Part shown: in pieces, positions 8,164 through 28,682 of the stretch
Numbering within the stretch: the stretch's first letter is position 1
Layout: each line of letters starts with the position of its first letter
Assembly: GCA_017439425.1 (NCBI GenBank)
Contig: JAFSJE010000060.1
Location: 1 to 36,165, forward strand
Origin: Oscillospiraceae bacterium
Lineage (GTDB): Bacteria > Bacillota > Clostridia > Oscillospirales > Oscillospiraceae
Direction of reading: 5' to 3'
Length of the DNA stretch: 36,165 nucleotides
Position numbers and translations under genes: made by a program
The notes under the pieces: model-generated
Seen by the model: only the letters and a program-made list of their open reading frames with translations
Database searches by the model: none
Told to the model about the DNA's origin: nothing

Positions 8164-8234
8164 AACTATAACTGTAAAAAGCAGTTTTATATTTCTTTGC
8201 GTACAAAAATCTATACGATAAGGAGAACACGAAC

Positions 8235-11200
8235 ATGGGAAGAAAACTTAAGTCCATGGATGGTAACAACGCAGCCGCATACGTGAGCTACGCTTTTACC
8301 GAGGTCGCGGGTATCTATCCGATCACCCCGTCCAGCCCCATGGCAGACTATGTTGACCAGTGGGCAGCCGCAGGCCAGAAAAACATTTTCGGAACCACAG
8401 TAAAAGTCATTGAAATGCAGTCCGAGGCCGGTGCCTCCGGTACCGTACACGGCTCTCTCGCCGCCGGTGCTCTCACCACCACCTACACCGCATCTCAGGG
8501 ACTTCTCCTCATGATCCCGAATATGTACAAGATCGCAGGCGAGCTTCTTCCCTGCGTATTCCACGTTTCCGCCCGTACCGTCGCAAGCCACGCGCTGAAC
8601 ATCTTCGGCGACCACTCCGACGTTATGGCGTGCCGTCAGACCGGCTTTGCAATGCTTGCCGAGGGCAACGTTCAGGAGGTTATGGACCTCGCTCCCGTTG
8701 CTCACCTTTCCGCAATCAAGGGCAGAGTTCCGTTCATCAACTTCTTTGACGGCTTCCGCACCTCCCACGAGATTCAGAAGATCGCCATCTGGGATTACAA
8801 CGATCTCAAGGAAATGGTCGATATGGACGCTGTCGAGGCGTTCCGCAAGCACGCTCTCAACCCCGAGAGACCTGCAATGCGCGGCTCTCACGAGAACGGA
8901 GATATCTTCTTCCAGCATCGTGAGGCTTCCAACGAGTACTACAACAAGCTTCCCGCAGTTGTCGAGGAGTACATGGAGAAGGTCAACCAGAAGCTCGGCA
9001 CCGACTACAAGCTCTTCAACTACTATGGCGCTCCCGATGCTGACCGCATCATCATCGCCATGGGCTCCTTCTGCGACGTTACCGAGGAGGTTATCGACTA
9101 CCTCAACGCTCACGGCGAGAAGGTCGGCCTCGTAAAGGTCCGCCTCTATCGTCCGTTCTGCGCCGATAAGCTCATCGAGGCGATTCCCGCAACCGCGAAG
9201 AAGATCGCTGTTATGGATCGCACCAAGGAGCCCGGCGCAATGGGCGAGCCGCTTTACATGGACGTTGTGGGCGCTCTTGCCAATGCCGGCATGAACGACG
9301 TCACCGTTATCGGCGGCCGTTACGGTCTCGGATCCAAGGATACTCCTCCTGCATCCGTCTTCGCTGTTTACAACGAGCTCAAGAAGGACGCCCCCAAGCG
9401 TCAGTTCACCATCGGTATCGTCGATGACGTTACCAATATGAGCCTTGAGGAGGACAAGAACTCCCCCAACACCGCCGCAGAGGGCACCATCGAGTGCAAG
9501 TTCTGGGGTCTCGGAGGAGACGGCACCGTCGGCGCCAACAAGAACTCCATCAAGATCATCGGCGACCATACCGATAAGTACGTTCAGGCTTACTTCCAGT
9601 ACGACTCCAAGAAGACCGGCGGTATCACCATCAGCCATCTTCGCTTCGGCGACAAGCCCATCAAGAGCCCGTACTACATCAACAAGGCCGACTTCGTTGC
9701 CTGCCACAACCCCTCTTACGTTGTCAAGGGCTACAAGATGGTCAACGACGTCAAGCCCGGCGGCGTATTCATGATCAACTGCCAGTGGTCTGACGAGGAG
9801 CTCGGCCACCATATGCCCGCTGAGGCGAAGCGCTACATCGCCAAGAACAACATCCAGCTGTACACCATCAACGCCATCGACCTCGCTATCCAGGTCGGCA
9901 TGGGCAAGCGCACCAACACCATCCTCCAGTCCGCGTTCTTCACCCTTGCGAAGGTTCTTCCGCAGGAGGACGCTATCAAGTACATGAAGGATGCCGCTAC
10001 CCACTCCTACCTCAAGAAGGGTCAGGACATCGTTGACATGAACCACAAGGCCATCGACGCCGGCGCCACCGCCTTCCACAAGGTCGAGGTTCCCGCCGAT
10101 TGGGCTACCGCTGCTGACGAGGCTGACACCACCGTTCTCGAGGGTCGCGAGGCAACCGTAAAGCAGGTCAAGAACATCATGAACCCCGTAGGAAAGATGG
10201 ACGGAGATTCCCTCCCCGTATCCGCCTTCCTCGATCACGTTGACGGTCAGTTCGAGCAGGGCGCTTCCGCCTATGAGAAGCGCGGCGTTGCAGTCAGCGT
10301 TCCTCACTGGGATGAGACAAAGTGCATCCAGTGCAACAACTGCGCATTTGTCTGCCCGCACGCCACCATCCGTCCCTACGCTCTTACCGAGGCTGAGGTC
10401 GCCGCGGCTCCCGCTGAGACGCGCGCTGTCCCCGTCAAGGCAGGCAAGGGCAAGGGCGTTTACAGCTACGTCATGGCTGTTTCCCCGCTCGACTGCATGG
10501 GCTGCGGCGTCTGCGTAGGTCAGTGCCCGACCGGTGCTATCACAATGGTTCCCCAGGAAGAGGAGCTCGATCAGCAGAAGGTCTTCGATTACTGCGTAGC
10601 AAAGGTCGAAGAGAAGGAAGACATGATCGACGCCACCGTCAAGGGAAGCCAGTTCCGCAAGCCGCTTCTCGAGTTCTCCGGCTCCTGCGCCGGCTGCGCC
10701 GAGACCAGCTATGCAAGACTTATCACCCAGCTCTTCGGTGACAGAATGTACATCTCCAACGCGACCGGATGCTCCTCCATCTGGGGCGGCCCGGCTGCTA
10801 CCTCCCCCTACACCACCAACGCCAAGGGTCAGGGCCCCGCATGGGCTAACTCCCTCTTCGAGGATAACGCTGAGCACGGTCTCGGTATGTACCTCGGCCA
10901 GAACGCCATCCGCAACGCTCTCGGCGATCAGCTCAAGGAGCTCTGCGCCTGCGACTGCGCTTCCGAGGAGCTGAAGGCTGCCATCGGCGCATGGTTCGAT
11001 ACAAAGACAAACGGCACCGAGAATAAGGCCGCTACCGCGACCCTCATCGCCGAGCTCGAGAAGAACGGCTCCGACGCTGCCAAGGCTATCCTTGCCAAGA
11101 AGGAATACCTCGGCAAGAAGAGCGTCTGGATCTTCGGCGGCGACGGCTGGGCTTATGATATCGGCTTCGGCGGCGTTGACCACGTTCTTGCCTCCGGCAA

Positions 11201-11768
11201 CGACGTCAACATCTTCGTATTCGATACTGAGGTCTATTCCAACACCGGCGGACAGGCATCCAAGGCTTCCAACATCGGTCAGGTCGCTCAGTTCGCAGCT
11301 GCCGGTAAGGAGATGAAGAAGAAGAGCCTTGCTGAGATCGCGATGAGCTACGGCTACATCTACGTCGCTCAGGTTGCTATGGGCGCCAACCCCGCTCAGA
11401 CCCTCAAGGCAATTCAGGAGGCAGAGGCTTATCCCGGACCCTCCCTCATCATCGGTTATGCACCCTGCGAGATGCACTCCATCAAGGGCGGCATGATCAA
11501 CTGCCAGAAGGAAATGAAGAAGGCTGTTGAGTGCGGCTACTGGAATATGTTCCGCTTCAACCCCGCTGCTCCTCAGGAGAAGCGCTTCACTCTCGATTCC
11601 AAGGCACCTGCCGGCGGATATCAGGAGTTCCTTATGAACGAGGCCCGTTACAGCCGCCTCACCCGCGAGTTCCCGGAGAGAGCTACCGTTCTCTTCGCAA
11701 AGAACGAGGAGGCCGCAAAGGAGCGTTACGAGCATCTCCAGAAGCTCCTCACTCTCTACAACGCCTGA
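8235..11768 (+). CDS. nifJ: Pyruvate:ferredoxin (flavodoxin) oxidoreductase, single-chain
   Basis: The 1177-residue enzyme oxidises pyruvate plus CoA to acetyl-CoA and CO2 and passes electrons to ferredoxin, the centre of clostridial fermentation. Visible parts: N-terminal transketolase-like domain (YPITPSSPMAD), a two-cluster ferredoxin domain (C697/C700/C703/C707 and C754/C757/C760/C764), ligands of the proximal cluster at C818, C821, C846 and C1078, and the thiamine-diphosphate motif GGDGWAYDIG with the Mg/TPP segment DTEVYSNTGGQ. All ligands are present, and the length is normal. The codons are strongly biased (AAC, TTC, CGC, AAG), unlike its neighbours, as expected for a very highly expressed gene. 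It is monocistronic. Confidence 0.97.
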   Translation: MGRKLKSMDGNNAAAYVSYAFTEVAGIYPITPSSPMADYVDQWAAAGQKNIFGTTVKVIEMQSEAGASGTVHGSLAAGALTTTYTASQGLLLMIPNMYKIAGELLPCVFHVSARTVASHALNIFGDHSDVMACRQTGFAMLAEGNVQEVMDLAPVAHLSAIKGRVPFINFFDGFRTSHEIQKIAIWDYNDLKEMVDMDAVEAFRKHALNPERPAMRGSHENGDIFFQHREASNEYYNKLPAVVEEYMEKVNQKLGTDYKLFNYYGAPDADRIIIAMGSFCDVTEEVIDYLNAHGEKVGLVKVRLYRPFCADKLIEAIPATAKKIAVMDRTKEPGAMGEPLYMDVVGALANAGMNDVTVIGGRYGLGSKDTPPASVFAVYNELKKDAPKRQFTIGIVDDVTNMSLEEDKNSPNTAAEGTIECKFWGLGGDGTVGANKNSIKIIGDHTDKYVQAYFQYDSKKTGGITISHLRFGDKPIKSPYYINKADFVACHNPSYVVKGYKMVNDVKPGGVFMINCQWSDEELGHHMPAEAKRYIAKNNIQLYTINAIDLAIQVGMGKRTNTILQSAFFTLAKVLPQEDAIKYMKDAATHSYLKKGQDIVDMNHKAIDAGATAFHKVEVPADWATAADEADTTVLEGREATVKQVKNIMNPVGKMDGDSLPVSAFLDHVDGQFEQGASAYEKRGVAVSVPHWDETKCIQCNNCAFVCPHATIRPYALTEAEVAAAPAETRAVPVKAGKGKGVYSYVMAVSPLDCMGCGVCVGQCPTGAITMVPQEEELDQQKVFDYCVAKVEEKEDMIDATVKGSQFRKPLLEFSGSCAGCAETSYARLITQLFGDRMYISNATGCSSIWGGPAATSPYTTNAKGQGPAWANSLFEDNAEHGLGMYLGQNAIRNALGDQLKELCACDCASEELKAAIGAWFDTKTNGTENKAATATLIAELEKNGSDAAKAILAKKEYLGKKSVWIFGGDGWAYDIGFGGVDHVLASGNDVNIFVFDTEVYSNTGGQASKASNIGQVAQFAAAGKEMKKKSLAEIAMSYGYIYVAQVAMGANPAQTLKAIQEAEAYPGPSLIIGYAPCEMHSIKGGMINCQKEMKKAVECGYWNMFRFNPAAPQEKRFTLDSKAPAGGYQEFLMNEARYSRLTREFPERATVLFAKNEEAAKERYEHLQKLLTLYNA

Positions 11769-11788
11769 GTTCAGCTCTGAATAAAACA

Positions 11789-11817
11789 AAAATCCCACGG
11801 TCTGACCGTGGGATTTT
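11789..11817. terminator. Bidirectional terminator between nifJ and the ABC permease
   Basis: Arms AAAATCCCACGG (11789-11800) and CCGTGGGATTTT (11806-11817) with a TCTGA loop. On the minus strand it is followed by TGTTTTATTC after the T run. It closes nifJ and the GntR-ABC operon. Confidence 0.88.
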
Positions 11818-11829
11818 CTTATGCAGAGA

Positions 11830-12630
11830 TCATTCAAGATTCAGCCGATATCTGAGATTCCACCAGGTTAAAACGTAGAAGATAATACCCTGAAGGAACT
11901 GAAAGCCAAAGAGAAGCGTAAAGTTCTGGTAAAAGTTTTCGTTAAAGGTTTCGGAGGTAAAGACATTTTCGTTGAGCGTAATAAGCACCTGCAAGCCGCC
12001 GCCGTTCATCCAACCGAGAATAATACCGATTACAAAGTAGGCGACAATGCTCCACAGCACCTTGTTCCTTGCAAAGCCGTAGCCTATTGACATGCAGGAG
12101 TAGACGTTGAGGCAGCCGACGATACCGGAAACGACGGCGTAGAGCGCAATGGAGAGCATCCACCCGAGCACCGACGCCTTGTTGTCGTAAGAGAAGAACA
12201 GCTCGAATAGGTAGCCGAGATCCTTCAATGCTTCGACGACCCAGCCGACCTCAAAGGCGGCGATAACCGCACTGAGCACTACAACAAGGACTGTTCCCGC
12301 ACTCCACACGAGAGAGACAATGATTTTCGCCCAGAGAATGGAGTGGATAGAGGCGGGGAGGGTCATTGTAAGGTATCCCTCGTCGCTGAGAACGTTTCGC
12401 TTGAAGCGCACTATCATAACAACAAAGGTATAGACAAAAGCGCCGATAAGCCCGATGAAGAATGCGGCAACGATGAGGTAGAGGGCAAGACCGATAAAAA
12501 TCGGCATATTTCTGTCAAGCATACGGAAGGCGAAATGCGCAAACAGAGAAACGAGCAGCACAACGGCGTACATCGGAAGAATAAGCCTTCCGGTCGCACG
12601 AAACTCGTGCTTAATGAGCTTTCCTAACAT
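11830..12630 (-). CDS. ABC-2-type transporter permease of the GntR/ABC operon
   Basis: The 266-residue integral membrane protein has about six hydrophobic segments (near 16-35, 44-75, 98-126, 155-183, 190-207 and 235-256). It is the last gene of a three-gene operon, and its ATG overlaps the ATPase gene by 7 bp. The layout GntR, ATPase, permease matches the YtrABC-like group linked to envelope stress or antimicrobial peptide response in Firmicutes. The transported substrate cannot be read from sequence. Confidence 0.82.
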   Translation of the reverse strand: MLGKLIKHEFRATGRLILPMYAVVLLVSLFAHFAFRMLDRNMPIFIGLALYLIVAAFFIGLIGAFVYTFVVMIVRFKRNVLSDEGYLTMTLPASIHSILWAKIIVSLVWSAGTVLVVVLSAVIAAFEVGWVVEALKDLGYLFELFFSYDNKASVLGWMLSIALYAVVSGIVGCLNVYSCMSIGYGFARNKVLWSIVAYFVIGIILGWMNGGGLQVLITLNENVFTSETFNENFYQNFTLLFGFQFLQGIIFYVLTWWNLRYRLNLE

Positions 12631-25573: not shown

Positions 25574-26206
25574 TTACGCGCGGATGATTGTGCCGAGCCC
25601 GCAGACTGCGATGCGGAAATCGCCGCAGGGATACTCGATGAGCCTGAAGGGCAGGGGACTGAGATTTTGCTCAAGCTCCGCGCCGCCGCCGTCAAGAACG
25701 ACGTTGAAGGCGGAAAACGGGGTATAAAGCCCGGTGCCGAGCGCCTTGACGAACGCCTCGTTGCAGACCCAAAGCCGCTGGAGATAGAGAGTCTGAGCGT
25801 CGCCGGAGAGCTTTTCCGCGCCCTCAAGCTCGGAGGCGGTGAAGAAGCGCTCAGCCATCTCTATCGTGCAGCGCGCGCTCTCAACGTCAACGCCGACGGG
25901 GGAATCGGATACCGCGACGACCGCCCACTGCCCGGCGTGGGAGATGGAAAACTCCGGCGCACCGTCGATTTTCGGCTTGCCGTACTCGTTTTTCGTTACC
26001 GTGAGCTTATCGATGTCCACGCCCTCGGCGCTCATCGCGTCCCGCAGGAGAAGCCACGCGCCGACAGAGCGCGCGGAATCGTGATCCTTTCGCATATTCT
26101 GCGCCCTTTTGCGGCGCTCGGGCGGTATGAGCGCGAGCTTGTCGCGCCATGCGCCGTCATAGAGGTCGGAAATATCTCTTGTGTAAAGCTTTACCATTTT
26201 TTTCAC
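25574..26206 (-). CDS. 4'-phosphopantetheinyl transferase, Sfp type
   Basis: The 210-residue protein transfers the phosphopantetheine arm of CoA to a carrier protein Ser. It has the Sfp-type GKPKIDGAPEFSISHAG (76-92), GVDVE (105-109; D107 and E109 bind Mg) and WVCNEAFVKALGTGL. In the last motif most family members have KEA; here N149 replaces the Lys, while E150 and K154 are kept. No carrier-protein or synthase gene is near. It starts at GTG 26206, overlapping the YolD-like gene by 4 bp, or at ATG 26197. Confidence 0.85.
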   Translation of the reverse strand: MKKMVKLYTRDISDLYDGAWRDKLALIPPERRKRAQNMRKDHDSARSVGAWLLLRDAMSAEGVDIDKLTVTKNEYGKPKIDGAPEFSISHAGQWAVVAVSDSPVGVDVESARCTIEMAERFFTASELEGAEKLSGDAQTLYLQRLWVCNEAFVKALGTGLYTPFSAFNVVLDGGGAELEQNLSPLPFRLIEYPCGDFRIAVCGLGTIIRA

Positions 26207-26418
26207 TCGCTTTCAAAATCCTCGTACCAATCGTCGGGTATGGCGTCGAAGTCGATGTATTCGGCGCTCTCAACGTCAAAGTTCTCGCCCTTTTCAGGCA
26301 TTCCCAGCTCCATTCGCTTGCGCCGGAGCGCCGCGGACAGCCCGGTCAGCGCGTCGAAGGGGGAAAACTGCTTTGCTCTGTCGGCGCGGCTCATCTTGTG
26401 GTCAGGTCTCTTCCCCAC
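26203..26418 (-). CDS. YolD-like small protein next to the Y-family polymerase
   Basis: This 71-residue, charged protein has the pattern MSRADRAKQFSPFDALTGL, then SAALRRKR, as in YolD-like proteins found beside Y-family polymerase genes in Firmicutes. Its exact biochemical role is unknown; YolD and UvrX-type polymerases are thought to work in the same DNA damage response. It overlaps the polymerase gene by 17 bp and the PPTase gene by 4 bp. The C-terminal third is acidic (DFDAIPDDWYEDFESE). Confidence 0.75.
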   Translation of the reverse strand: MGKRPDHKMSRADRAKQFSPFDALTGLSAALRRKRMELGMPEKGENFDVESAEYIDFDAIPDDWYEDFESE

Positions 26419-27682
26419 TTTTGTGACCTCCGATCTGAAGATTGCGCTCCCGTCTCGTCGCGCCCTCCTCGAAGTCCATACCCTTCAAAACGGCGTTTTT
26501 GCCGTATTTTTTCTTTATTTTCAGCACCGCTTCCTGAATTTTGCGGTTCTTCTCGAGATCCCTGTGCTCAACCTCGGTAAAAAGCGACTGTTGGAAAGCG
26601 CCGCCGTCGGGATTTAATTCTCCCGTTCCGATGTTTATGCGGCGGATTGGCGTTTCGCGGTCGACAACTCTGTCAAAAACCGCCGTCGCCGCCGGTATCA
26701 TAACGCTGTCGGCGTTAGTCTCGATGCCGAGCTTTGCCGTACCTTTTGCAGGGCGCTTCAGCGCCGAGGAGGTGTAGCCGACCCATATCCCGAGCGAGGA
26801 CGTCACAAGCCCCTTTTCCACCATATCGAGGGAGAGAGAATCGACCATCTCCTTAAGAATGAGCTTTGCCTCGTCAAAATTATAGTCGCGCATGAGCACC
26901 TGCCCCGAGGAGAGCGAGTGGCTCTGCGGCTTGTACGCCTTTATGTCCGCAATCGTCGTCGGCTCTATGCCCCAGGCGTGGTCTATCATGAGCTCCGCGT
27001 CTATGCCGAACTCGCGGTAGAGAATTTCTTCATCGCAGTTTGCTATACCGCGCTGGGTGGTGATGCCGTATTTTTCAAGCCGCTTGGCAATCCCTCGGCC
27101 GATGCGCCAGAAATCGGTGAGCGGCTTGTGATCCCAGAGTGTTTCGCGGTAGGTTTTTTCGTTCAGCTCGCCGATAAAGTCGGGCGCGTGCTTCGCAGTA
27201 ATGTCGAGGGCGATCTTCGCAAGGTACATATTCGTTCCGATACCCGCCGTGGCGCGCACCCCGACCTCCTCGGTCACCTTATCCATCAGGAAAACCGCCA
27301 TTTCGCGCGGCGTTTTGCCGTAGAACTTGAGGTATCTCGTTATGTCGAGAAACGCCTCGTCTATCGAATAGACGTGTATATCGTCAGGGGAGATGAAGCG
27401 CAGATACACGCCGTAGATATTAGCGGCGTACTCGATGTACTTCGCCATTCTCGGCGGCGCGACGATGTACTCCATATCCTTCGGTATCTCGAATACCCTG
27501 CATCGGTTGCGAACGCCCTTCGCCTTCATCGAGGGAGATATCGCAAGGCAGATCGTACCGGAGGAGCGGCTCGGATCGGCAACGACGAGGTCTGTTGTCA
27601 TGGGGTCAAGCCCGCGCTCAACGCACTCGACAGAGGCGTAAAAGCTTTTGAGGTCGATGCAGAGATAGTATTTTTCGCTCAT
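26402..27682 (-). CDS. Y-family DNA polymerase (UvrX/DinB-like), translesion synthesis
   Basis: The 426-residue protein contains CIDLKSFYASVE with D10 and SIDEAFLDI with D108 and E109, the catalytic carboxylates. The fingers/thumb region and a little-finger domain follow to about 350, then a basic tail without a clear beta-clamp motif that I could place. It should copy past damaged bases with low fidelity. GGAGG is 7 nt before ATG 27682, whereas GTG 27688 is too near. It diverges from a LexA/UmuD-like repressor gene, an SOS-like arrangement, and heads an operon with YolD-like, PPTase and AraC genes. Confidence 0.93.
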   Translation of the reverse strand: MSEKYYLCIDLKSFYASVECVERGLDPMTTDLVVADPSRSSGTICLAISPSMKAKGVRNRCRVFEIPKDMEYIVAPPRMAKYIEYAANIYGVYLRFISPDDIHVYSIDEAFLDITRYLKFYGKTPREMAVFLMDKVTEEVGVRATAGIGTNMYLAKIALDITAKHAPDFIGELNEKTYRETLWDHKPLTDFWRIGRGIAKRLEKYGITTQRGIANCDEEILYREFGIDAELMIDHAWGIEPTTIADIKAYKPQSHSLSSGQVLMRDYNFDEAKLILKEMVDSLSLDMVEKGLVTSSLGIWVGYTSSALKRPAKGTAKLGIETNADSVMIPAATAVFDRVVDRETPIRRINIGTGELNPDGGAFQQSLFTEVEHRDLEKNRKIQEAVLKIKKKYGKNAVLKGMDFEEGATRRERNLQIGGHKSGEET

Positions 27683-27704
27683 TTGCACTCCTCCGTAGAA
27701 TAAA

Positions 27705-27733
27705 AGTATAACACATATTTTTCCTATTGCAAA
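27705..27733 (-). promoter_or_regulatory. Promoter of the Y-family polymerase operon
   Basis: On the minus strand, TTTGCA (27733-27728) and TATACT (27710-27705), spacer 17 bp. Its -35 overlaps the -35 of the divergent repressor promoter. Confidence 0.65.
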
Positions 27734-27755
27734 ATAAAATATTGCGTATTATAAT
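27727..27755 (+). promoter_or_regulatory. Promoter of the LexA-like repressor gene
   Basis: TTGCAA (27727-27732) and TATAAT (27750-27755), spacer 17 bp. TTGCAA is its own complement, so the same box can serve both directions. Confidence 0.72.
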
Positions 27756-27759
27756 AAAT

Positions 27760-27786
27760 CTATCGGAAACAAAATGCTTCCGATAG
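27760..27786. promoter_or_regulatory. 27-bp dyad operator of the LexA-like gene
   Basis: Arms CTATCGGAA (27760-27768) and TTCCGATAG (27778-27786), 9 bp each, spaced by 9. It starts 4 bp behind the -10 and its right arm overlaps the AGGAGG of the repressor gene. It is unlike the usual Firmicutes LexA box CGAACNNNNGTTCG. Confidence 0.75.
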
Positions 27787-27798
27787 GAGGATACCACC

Positions 27799-28401
27799 AT
27801 GCGGACGAAAAATCAAGCACTAATGGAAAAAATCCGCGCCTTTGCGGAGGAGCATATACTCAAAACCGGCGCCTCGCCGTCCACCTCGGACATCGCGGAA
27901 GCGCTCGGCATCGCGCGCTCTACGGCGTACAAGTACCTCTCCGCGATGGACAATATGGGAAAAATCAGCTACCGGGGCGGCGTTATCGAAACGGGGCGCA
28001 CGCGCCTTTGCGAGAGCCGCACCTCCCGCGCCGCCATAGTCGGCTCCATACCCTGCGGAACTCCGGAGGAGGAAGAGGAGGCTGTTGAGGCATACGTTGC
28101 CCTGCCGGACGCGATCTTCGGCACCGGGGATTTCTATATTCTGCGCGCCTCGGGCGACAGTATGCAGGGCGCGGGCATCGACTCGGGCGATCTGGTGGTC
28201 ATTGAGCGGTGCAGCTGCGCGCGCGAGGGCGAGATAGTGGTCGCACTCGTCGAGGGCGAGAACACTTTGAAGCGCTATTACGTCGACCGCGAGGCGGGCA
28301 AGATACGCCTGCACGCGGAAAACCCGCGGTACGCGGACATCATGGCGTCGGAGTGCGAGATACAGGGCGTTGCGCGGCATATAATAAAGGCGGTGGTATG
28401 A
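27799..28401 (+). CDS. LexA/UmuD-like S24 self-cleaving repressor
   Basis: The 200-residue protein has an N-terminal winged HTH (TSDIAEALGIARSTAYKYLS, 29-48) and a C-terminal S24 serine peptidase fold: cleavage bond probably C86-G87 in IPCGTP, nucleophile S121 in ASGDSMQGAGI, and general-base K158 in ENTLKRYY. LexA proteins usually cleave Ala-Gly; a Cys-Gly site is as in UmuD. RecA-stimulated self-cleavage under DNA damage would derepress its targets. A dyad lies over its own promoter start. AGGAGG at 27785-27790 supports ATG 27799. It diverges from the translesion polymerase. Confidence 0.9.
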   Translation: MRTKNQALMEKIRAFAEEHILKTGASPSTSDIAEALGIARSTAYKYLSAMDNMGKISYRGGVIETGRTRLCESRTSRAAIVGSIPCGTPEEEEEAVEAYVALPDAIFGTGDFYILRASGDSMQGAGIDSGDLVVIERCSCAREGEIVVALVEGENTLKRYYVDREAGKIRLHAENPRYADIMASECEIQGVARHIIKAVV

Positions 28402-28682
28402 TGGCGTGCGCGAGGAGAAAGTGCTATGTTGAGGTGCTTGCGGAGCACCAGATAAGCGGGCTGTGCGTTCCGGTGGAGATCAGGCTCGAGGACGGCGAGA
28501 ATTTCAAAATCGACCGCGTCCGCGCCGTTGAGCGCGTCGCCGCCGCAAAGCCTACGAGCCGGTACACCGTTGTCATCGACGGCAAGCAGACGTATCTTTT
28601 CCGCGAGGAGGACGGAAAGTGGTTCGTTCAGCTTAAAAGCAACATCATCACGAAAAGCGTCGGCAGAGAGGCGCGAATTTAG
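28398..28682 (+). CDS. Small protein of unknown function, 94 aa, downstream of the LexA-like gene
   Basis: The frame starts ATGATGG, overlapping the repressor stop (ATGA), and gives a 94-residue soluble, charged protein: ACARRKCYVEVLAEHQISGL, then beta strands PVEIRLEDGENFKIDRV, RYTVVIDGKQTYLFREEDGK and WFVQLK. The pattern suggests a small beta-barrel. The last 30 residues of the wider frame are the natural end; the frame before 28398 is the shadow of the repressor gene. No family was recognised. Coupling to the repressor implies a part in the same damage response, which is not shown. Confidence 0.7.
   Translation: MMACARRKCYVEVLAEHQISGLCVPVEIRLEDGENFKIDRVRAVERVAAAKPTSRYTVVIDGKQTYLFREEDGKWFVQLKSNIITKSVGREARI

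Follow-up and report, generated by a model that had tools for sequence, protein, structure and literature searches.

The stretch analysed here, hereafter the window, comprises 36,165 nt of contig JAFSJE010000060.1 of an Oscillospiraceae bacterium (GCA_017439425.1) and contains two divergent gene pairs (Table 1). Leftwards run a translesion DNA polymerase and an open reading frame of 71 residues, s71 (26203–27682); rightwards run an S24 repressor and an open reading frame of 93 residues, p2 (27799–28682). A preliminary description of this DNA had ended the locus at position 28682, which includes this second small gene. The start of the polymerase is likely the ATG at 27682 and not the GTG at 27688. 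Compared by sequence with solved structures, the repressor matched LexA and UmuD, and the polymerase matched DNA polymerase IV. Elsewhere in the window (8211–11837), two open frames of 1208 and 1177 codons lie almost fully overlapping on opposite strands, and one of the two has probably arisen as a by-product of codon use. In what follows, genomes compared carry G-numbers and loci carry L-numbers, and carriers of the repressor are named by these labels.

Table 1. Features of the repressor and polymerase cassette, in window coordinates (a point marks features without a strand)
Feature	Position	Strand	Basis
s71, small open reading frame	26203..26418	-	downstream of the polymerase, overlaps its end
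Y-family (DinB/UmuC-like) translesion DNA polymerase	26402..27682	-	Pfam IMS 1.4e-27, IMS_HHH, IMS_C
Polymerase -10, TATACT on the minus strand	27705..27710	-	consensus match
TTGCAA, palindromic -35	27727..27732	.	usable on both strands
Repressor -10, TATAAT	27750..27755	+	consensus match
27-bp dyad, probable repressor operator	27760..27786	.	conservation, matrix score
S24 autoproteolytic LexA-like repressor, 200 aa	27799..28401	+	Pfam S24 2.2e-26; Cys86-Gly87, Ser121, Lys158
p2, small protein downstream of the repressor	28401..28682	+	similar proteins beside Y-family polymerases

In the repressor, the S24 domain follows a helix-turn-helix start. The protein scored 109.9 bits with the LexA model TIGR00498 (109.3 bits in the genome search), short of the curated cut-off of 110.95, and its 71.6 bits with the UmuD model PRK10276 also stayed below the cut-off of 110. 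The preliminary description had read from the sequence a catalytic Ser-Lys pair and a Cys-Gly cleavage bond instead of Ala-Gly, and both are seen in the alignment of 58 family members, from which one locus, L059, is missing: the serine and the lysine are invariant (58 of 58), while the bond is Cys-Gly in 55 members, the window included, and has Ala in three. Three weaker-matching proteins from the Oscillospiraceae that were aligned, by comparison, have Ala-Gly and are ordinary LexA. Because both the TIGR00498 cut-off and the Ala-Gly bond are wanting, the repressor is, judged by its sequence, not filed here as LexA, and neither is it filed as UmuD. The likeness to UmuD suggested earlier holds for the cleavage bond, which is also Cys-Gly in the E. 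coli UmuD sequence; it does not extend to the C-terminal domain, which matches the UmuD model no better (72.7 bits) than do the domains of two ordinary LexA proteins (75.8 and 76.7 bits) and itself scored 77 with the LexA model. Descent from UmuD was considered as an origin and is unsupported by these scores. In a quick tree, made without bootstrap, the 58 family members and 20 LexA proteins fell on opposite sides of a branch with an SH-aLRT of 99; E. coli LexA and L062 sit on long branches, and the placement of L062 inside the group of the window is probably wrong.

The preliminary description had also pointed to a 27-bp dyad beginning 4 bp behind the -10 of the repressor. This dyad, CTATCGGAA-N9-TTCCGATAG, is exact, lies at that spacing, and is the only match in the window with up to three mismatches (0.01 expected); in its fuller extent it has 12-bp arms and a 3-bp centre, with one mismatch. 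When a matrix was built from the loci of seven distant relatives, the dyad was the top site in the 36 kb, with 32.6 bits compared with 9.4 for the runner-up. The usual LexA box of Firmicutes is GAAC-N4-GTTC, and the dyad was rightly said to be unlike it, as it spans 27 bp and lacks this motif. In the dyads of some relatives (L115, L059, and L124), however, inner halves GAAC and GTTC occur, and since these recall the Firmicutes box, the long operator may be its extended descendant. The operator consensus is CTATCGGAAGCAGACTGCTTCCGATAG, with half-sites that by eye read outward roughly as nTG(C/T)TTCCGATAGA, and it is neither GGA-N5-TCC nor CTAA-N5-TTAG, the motifs given for Bacteroidetes LexA in PMC8565304.

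Conservation of the dyad beside orthologues, on which the idea of a dedicated operator depends, was found in all six divergent cassettes, where it occupies the same position (for example, CTATCGGAAACAAACTGCTTCCGATAG in G026, CTAAAGGAAGCAGACTGCTTCCTTTAG in G021, and CTATAAGAAGCATACTGCTTCCGTTAG in G008), with imperfect forms in G008 and G003, and the dyad recurs in changed form in distant relatives. The operator matrix had been built from seven loci outside the divergent six, and each training locus and three named near kin were held out in turn. With a threshold of at least 10 bits, it found a site near the promoter (-75 to -1) in 24 of 58 loci, among them the window, its five divergent kin or near copies, and the training loci, and in none of the 58 control stretches (-200 to -126). 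A plain dyad test over the 75 bases before the start gave p ≤ 0.05 in 35 of 59 loci and in 11 of 58 control stretches farther upstream (Fisher p 1e-5, with relatedness ignored; related loci were unweighted, and p values here are therefore too small). Because so many control stretches were also positive, the matrix with held-out loci was preferred. The dyad of G008 (L051) was not significant by the plain test (p 0.20) and is not among the 35. L125, with fewer than 200 bases upstream, is missing from the control and matrix counts over 58 loci, and the starts of L098, L099, L100, and L125 are perhaps misplaced. Covariation between the operator and the helix-turn-helix was tried as evidence and rejected: a p of 0.0005 in 23 chosen operators, a set that omitted L050, L059, L092, L093, L100, L102, L103, L104, L105, L107, L108, and L139 of the 35, was lost in wider sets, with p 0.054 (partial p 0.13) for all 33 significant dyads, from which only L050 (a near copy of the window) and L059 (its frame interrupted) were omitted, and p 0.28 for the 28 left without close kin.

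A dyad between promoter and start codon might also act as an RNA hairpin in the 5′ untranslated region, slowing translation or stabilizing the message. Folding of its RNA gives -12.9 kcal/mol (z -2.3), with a stem that reaches up to the Shine-Dalgarno GAGG and ends against it, as such a function would lead one to expect. In the 29 loci with a called -10, however, the centre of the dyad lies 17.4 bases from the -10 (sd 3.0) and 33.2 bases from the start codon (sd 7.0), so that the distance to the promoter is the better kept of the two (F test p 1e-5, with relatedness ignored); in several loci (L060, L114, and L122) well over 20 bases separate the end of the dyad from the start codon; and the matrix test indicates that the sequence of the arms is conserved, not pairing alone. 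A role as hairpin is unlikely on these grounds. Since it keeps step with the promoter and not with the start codon, the dyad is most likely a DNA operator.

Less uniform is the arrangement of the two promoters, which are consensus matches and not mapped starts. TTGCAA lies 17 bp from the TATAAT of the repressor and 16 bp from the TATACT of the polymerase, and the palindromic -35 shared by both strands, proposed earlier, is present in the window, with its end at 27732 and not at 27733. The proposed overlap of the two promoters on this element is found in the window, G028, and G026 and is absent from G021, G008, and G003: TTGCAA is the -35 of the repressor in all six divergent cassettes and that of the polymerase in three, the polymerases of G021, G008, and G003 having promoter-like sites of their own farther away. 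For all six, the matrix search of the polymerase side yielded no second operator, although the 200 bases before the repressor cover the whole intergenic region. Joint repression of polymerase and repressor is putative, and because no such operator was found, the polymerase may not be repressed by the dyad. Moreover, footprint sizes are such that a repressor on the dyad should leave room for RNA polymerase at the polymerase promoter, which makes direct repression of the polymerase in the divergent layout doubtful.

A Y-family polymerase match above 100 bits was present in 24 of the 59 loci, the window included; six of these are divergent and 18 co-directional. Many relatives have the co-directional layout repressor-(p2)-polymerase-s71 (in L143 the polymerase is about 3 kb off), and in these loci the operator could control the polymerase directly. 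An open reading frame similar to s71 lies beside the polymerase in the six divergent cassettes. No Pfam (E 0.001) or PHROG (E 0.1) match was obtained for s71, and for p2 there was no PHROG match and no Pfam match at E 0.001, with only matches below the curated cut-offs at E 1. Because p2-like genes adjoin polymerases under other regulators as well (G007, G010, and G014, by eye), p2 seems to accompany the polymerase and not the present repressor. These regulators are among the S24 matches found beside polymerases in congeners without the present repressor (L172–L175, in G010, G014, G016, and G007); by eye, the translated proteins of G007, G010, and G014 have an XRE-like start and Ala-Gly, and the match in G016 has an internal stop. 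Between the DinB-type polymerase and the p2-like gene of G010 (L172, 788–1057) sits an 89-residue protein with a LexA-type helix-turn-helix and without S24 (51.9 bits with the LexA model), and short CTCT/AGAG repeats recur by eye between the genes in G010 and G014. The IMS model matched 32 of the 34 genomes of the genus. In the draft of the window's own genome it matched the window polymerase only; since a second match, of DinB type, occurs in the near relatives G028, G026, and G021, its absence here may be a gap.

The surroundings of the cassette bear on whether the repressor belongs to it at all. In the other 35 of the 59 loci no polymerase match exceeded 100 bits, some of these stretches ending at contig ends and some having, by eye, metallopeptidase-like or mobile-element genes instead. 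In L059, L092, L115, and L139, the relative of the repressor is followed by an ImmA/IrrE-like gene (by eye), with no polymerase. The gene could then be a repressor left behind by a mobile element or prophage and placed beside the polymerase by chance, a reading with which similar proteins in phage and plasmid records, relatives standing by eye beside mobile-element genes, and up to five matches listed per genome would agree. The phage records gave 40 matches to the repressor, all below 60% identity, and one scan of viral contigs gave no relative. Against a leftover stand the recurrence of the polymerase partner in the 24 loci and the finding that the four genes form a module that keeps its chromosomal neighbours, on one side or both, in five other genomes with divergent cassettes, down to a repressor identity of 62%. 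G028 and G026 share flanks with rhamnulokinase, AraC, and phosphopantetheinyl transferase genes and, on the opposite side, paired ABC transporters; G021, whose contig ends after p2, keeps the rhamnulokinase side, and G008 and G003 keep the side with the ABC transporters. A chance neighbour of this kind is very unlikely. Among single relatives, three observations may be recorded: five repressor matches were listed in each of G190, G243, and G331; a Lactiplantibacillus plasmid carries, within a capsule-type gene cluster, a relative with 42% identity that is annotated as LexA (L154, CP028228.1); and in a relative on a public MAG contig (L059, 5001–5591) the frame is interrupted by a stop close to the cleavage bond.

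Full-length relatives of the repressor were found in seven of the 34 genomes of the genus (G000, G028, G026 with two, G021, G008, G003, and G009); in G029 the polymerase and s71 are present and the contig stops where the repressor would be. The named near relatives in GTDB contigs come from Oscillospiraceae MAGs of roe deer rumen and goat abomasum. Across the family Oscillospiraceae, 300 of 400 sampled genomes had repressor matches, and the matches listed comprise a stronger group, of roughly 100–180 bits, and a weaker one. The repressor is the only LexA-type regulator found in its own draft genome (2.30 Mb, 95.5% complete), where the LexA model matched the window gene alone and the S24 model matched it together with three weaker, partial matches. 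The other genomes compared are drafts as well. In a TIGR00498 profile search over the 34 of the genus, some match at E 0.001 was obtained in 17, and those above 80 bits were either the present repressor family or a C-terminal domain only (G022 and G033). The cut-off was passed by only six of nine matching control genomes, so a diverged LexA could score under it. The preliminary description had held the circuit to be separate from a LexA circuit, and this is not supported in that form, as no LexA above the cut-off was found in any of the 34 genomes and the repressor itself comes so close to it.

How far the circuit extends was judged from pattern searches. With the pattern CTANNNGAANCANNNTGNTTCNNNTAG and up to three mismatches, six carriers gave 11 matches beyond the cassette sites compared with 12 for the backwards control. 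Eight of the 11 are inside frames (both of those with two mismatches and six with three), and the three outside, all with three mismatches (two in G021, one in G028), are at frame starts or in the gap between frames. The pattern TATCNGAAGCNNNNNGCTTCNGATA, likewise with up to three mismatches, recovered the cassette site in six of seven carriers, the variant of G021 being missed, and gave eight further matches compared with one for the backwards control, all eight inside mechanically called open frames. In eight non-carriers it gave no match, a weak result in that the four measured are richer in G+C (0.65 around recA vs 0.56–0.64 in six carriers). Neither pattern gave an extra site with two or fewer mismatches outside coding frames in the carriers, which leaves room for weaker sites. 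The recA gene is present, and near it, in six carriers and four other genomes, no core match had fewer than two mismatches; those with two or three lie inside or beyond the gene, with one in the non-carrier G015 overlapping the start codon. A site closely resembling the operator, CTTTCGGAAGCAGACTGCTTCCGATAC, scores 31.7 bits and is found inside a replication-initiator-like frame of G028 (L043, 985–1011, contig G028:C3), on the same contig as the cassette. Since most of the extra pattern matches, and all of those with two or fewer mismatches, fall in frames and recA has no close core match, the circuit looks local; the conserved dyad and the lack of such close extra sites outside frames give good support to the earlier proposal of a dedicated circuit that has its own operator. 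The same results weigh on the possibility that the repressor is simply the diverged LexA of its host, heading an ordinary multi-gene SOS regulon. A score 1 bit below the LexA cut-off and its standing as the sole LexA match of the genome are what such a protein would have; the lack of close sites outside coding frames and near recA, the branch apart from ordinary LexA, the Cys-Gly bond, and the absence of a full-length copy from 27 of the 34 genomes of the genus are not, and a host LexA of that kind is improbable.

Among known systems, the closest parallels are HdiR and UmuDAb, which according to PMC8565304 are S24 proteins that, in groups lacking LexA, govern minimal regulons of error-prone polymerases, the outcome of a convergent process; the subject is also reviewed in PMC9578287. 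Like the window protein, HdiR of Lactococcus and Streptococcus is an S24 repressor in a family without LexA, and it is described as controlling itself and the Y-family polymerase gene umuC and as undergoing cleavage triggered by RecA (PMC8565304). HdiR, however, is grouped there with phage repressors, whereas the window repressor has its helix-turn-helix start within the LexA model match (positions 10–200) and a Cys-Gly bond; the S24 proteins of G007, G010, and G014, with their XRE-like start and Ala-Gly, look more like HdiR. UmuDAb of Acinetobacter, a genus without LexA, resembles the present case as a repressor of error-prone polymerases with an unusually large operator; it differs in being, according to the account in PMC11332147, evolved from UmuD and aided by DdrR, whereas for the C-terminal domain here the LexA model gives a slightly better score than the UmuD model. 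The non-canonical LexA of Bacteroidetes is likewise an S24 regulator in the place of LexA, but it is presented in PMC8565304 as exclusive to Bacteroidetes, with the two motifs named above, and as an S24 family controlling a canonical SOS response. Ordinary Clostridia LexA, finally, shares the domain order and the Ser-Lys dyad and differs in its Ala-Gly bond (in the three aligned) and in its separate branch. In the open-licence literature, a search for LexA, Oscillospiraceae, and SOS response found no paper, and among the matches listed no title or abstract start named the present family.

Taken together, these observations suggest, with a probability of roughly 0.72, that the window protein is an autorepressor standing in for LexA, which would bind the dyad as its operator, be cleavable through RecA, and belong to a dedicated translesion cassette, like HdiR and UmuDAb and in another lineage. 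By analogy with these two proteins, we infer a similar way of working. A dimer of the repressor would bind the 27-bp dyad, whose role as operator is supported by its conservation, and would block its own promoter and with it p2. Upon DNA damage, RecA filaments would trigger cleavage at Cys86-Gly87, as is expected from the family, so that the repressor is released and repressor and p2 are made. The polymerase and s71 would be part of the same conserved translesion module, the polymerase being either made at a basal level, with control through p2 or through protein contacts, or coupled to the repressor only by two RNA polymerases competing for the shared -35. A more elaborate version, tentative and rather improbable as a whole, would give the protein two functions, its LexA-type helix-turn-helix serving repression and its S24 part, after cleavage at Cys-Gly, acting as a UmuD'-like manager of the polymerase; the two promoters, which share the palindromic -35 in the closest three genomes, would then work as a see-saw, with the repressor promoter being repressed on one side and the polymerase promoter being used on the other, and p2 would be the partner induced by damage.

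For the autorepressor reading, what the locus offers is a real, conserved, and apparently self-contained unit of repressor and operator joined to a translesion module. The arrangement is a new case of a design known from few other bacteria, and it adds another lineage, from rumen and gut Clostridia, to the few cases in which an S24 protein other than LexA takes the place of LexA beside error-prone polymerases. It comes with long operators that can be read from the sequence and with a recurring small partner, p2. As the genus hosts several regulators beside similar polymerases (the present family, XRE-like S24 proteins, and in some genomes none seen), the replacement of one regulator by another around a constant polymerase module could be studied in it.
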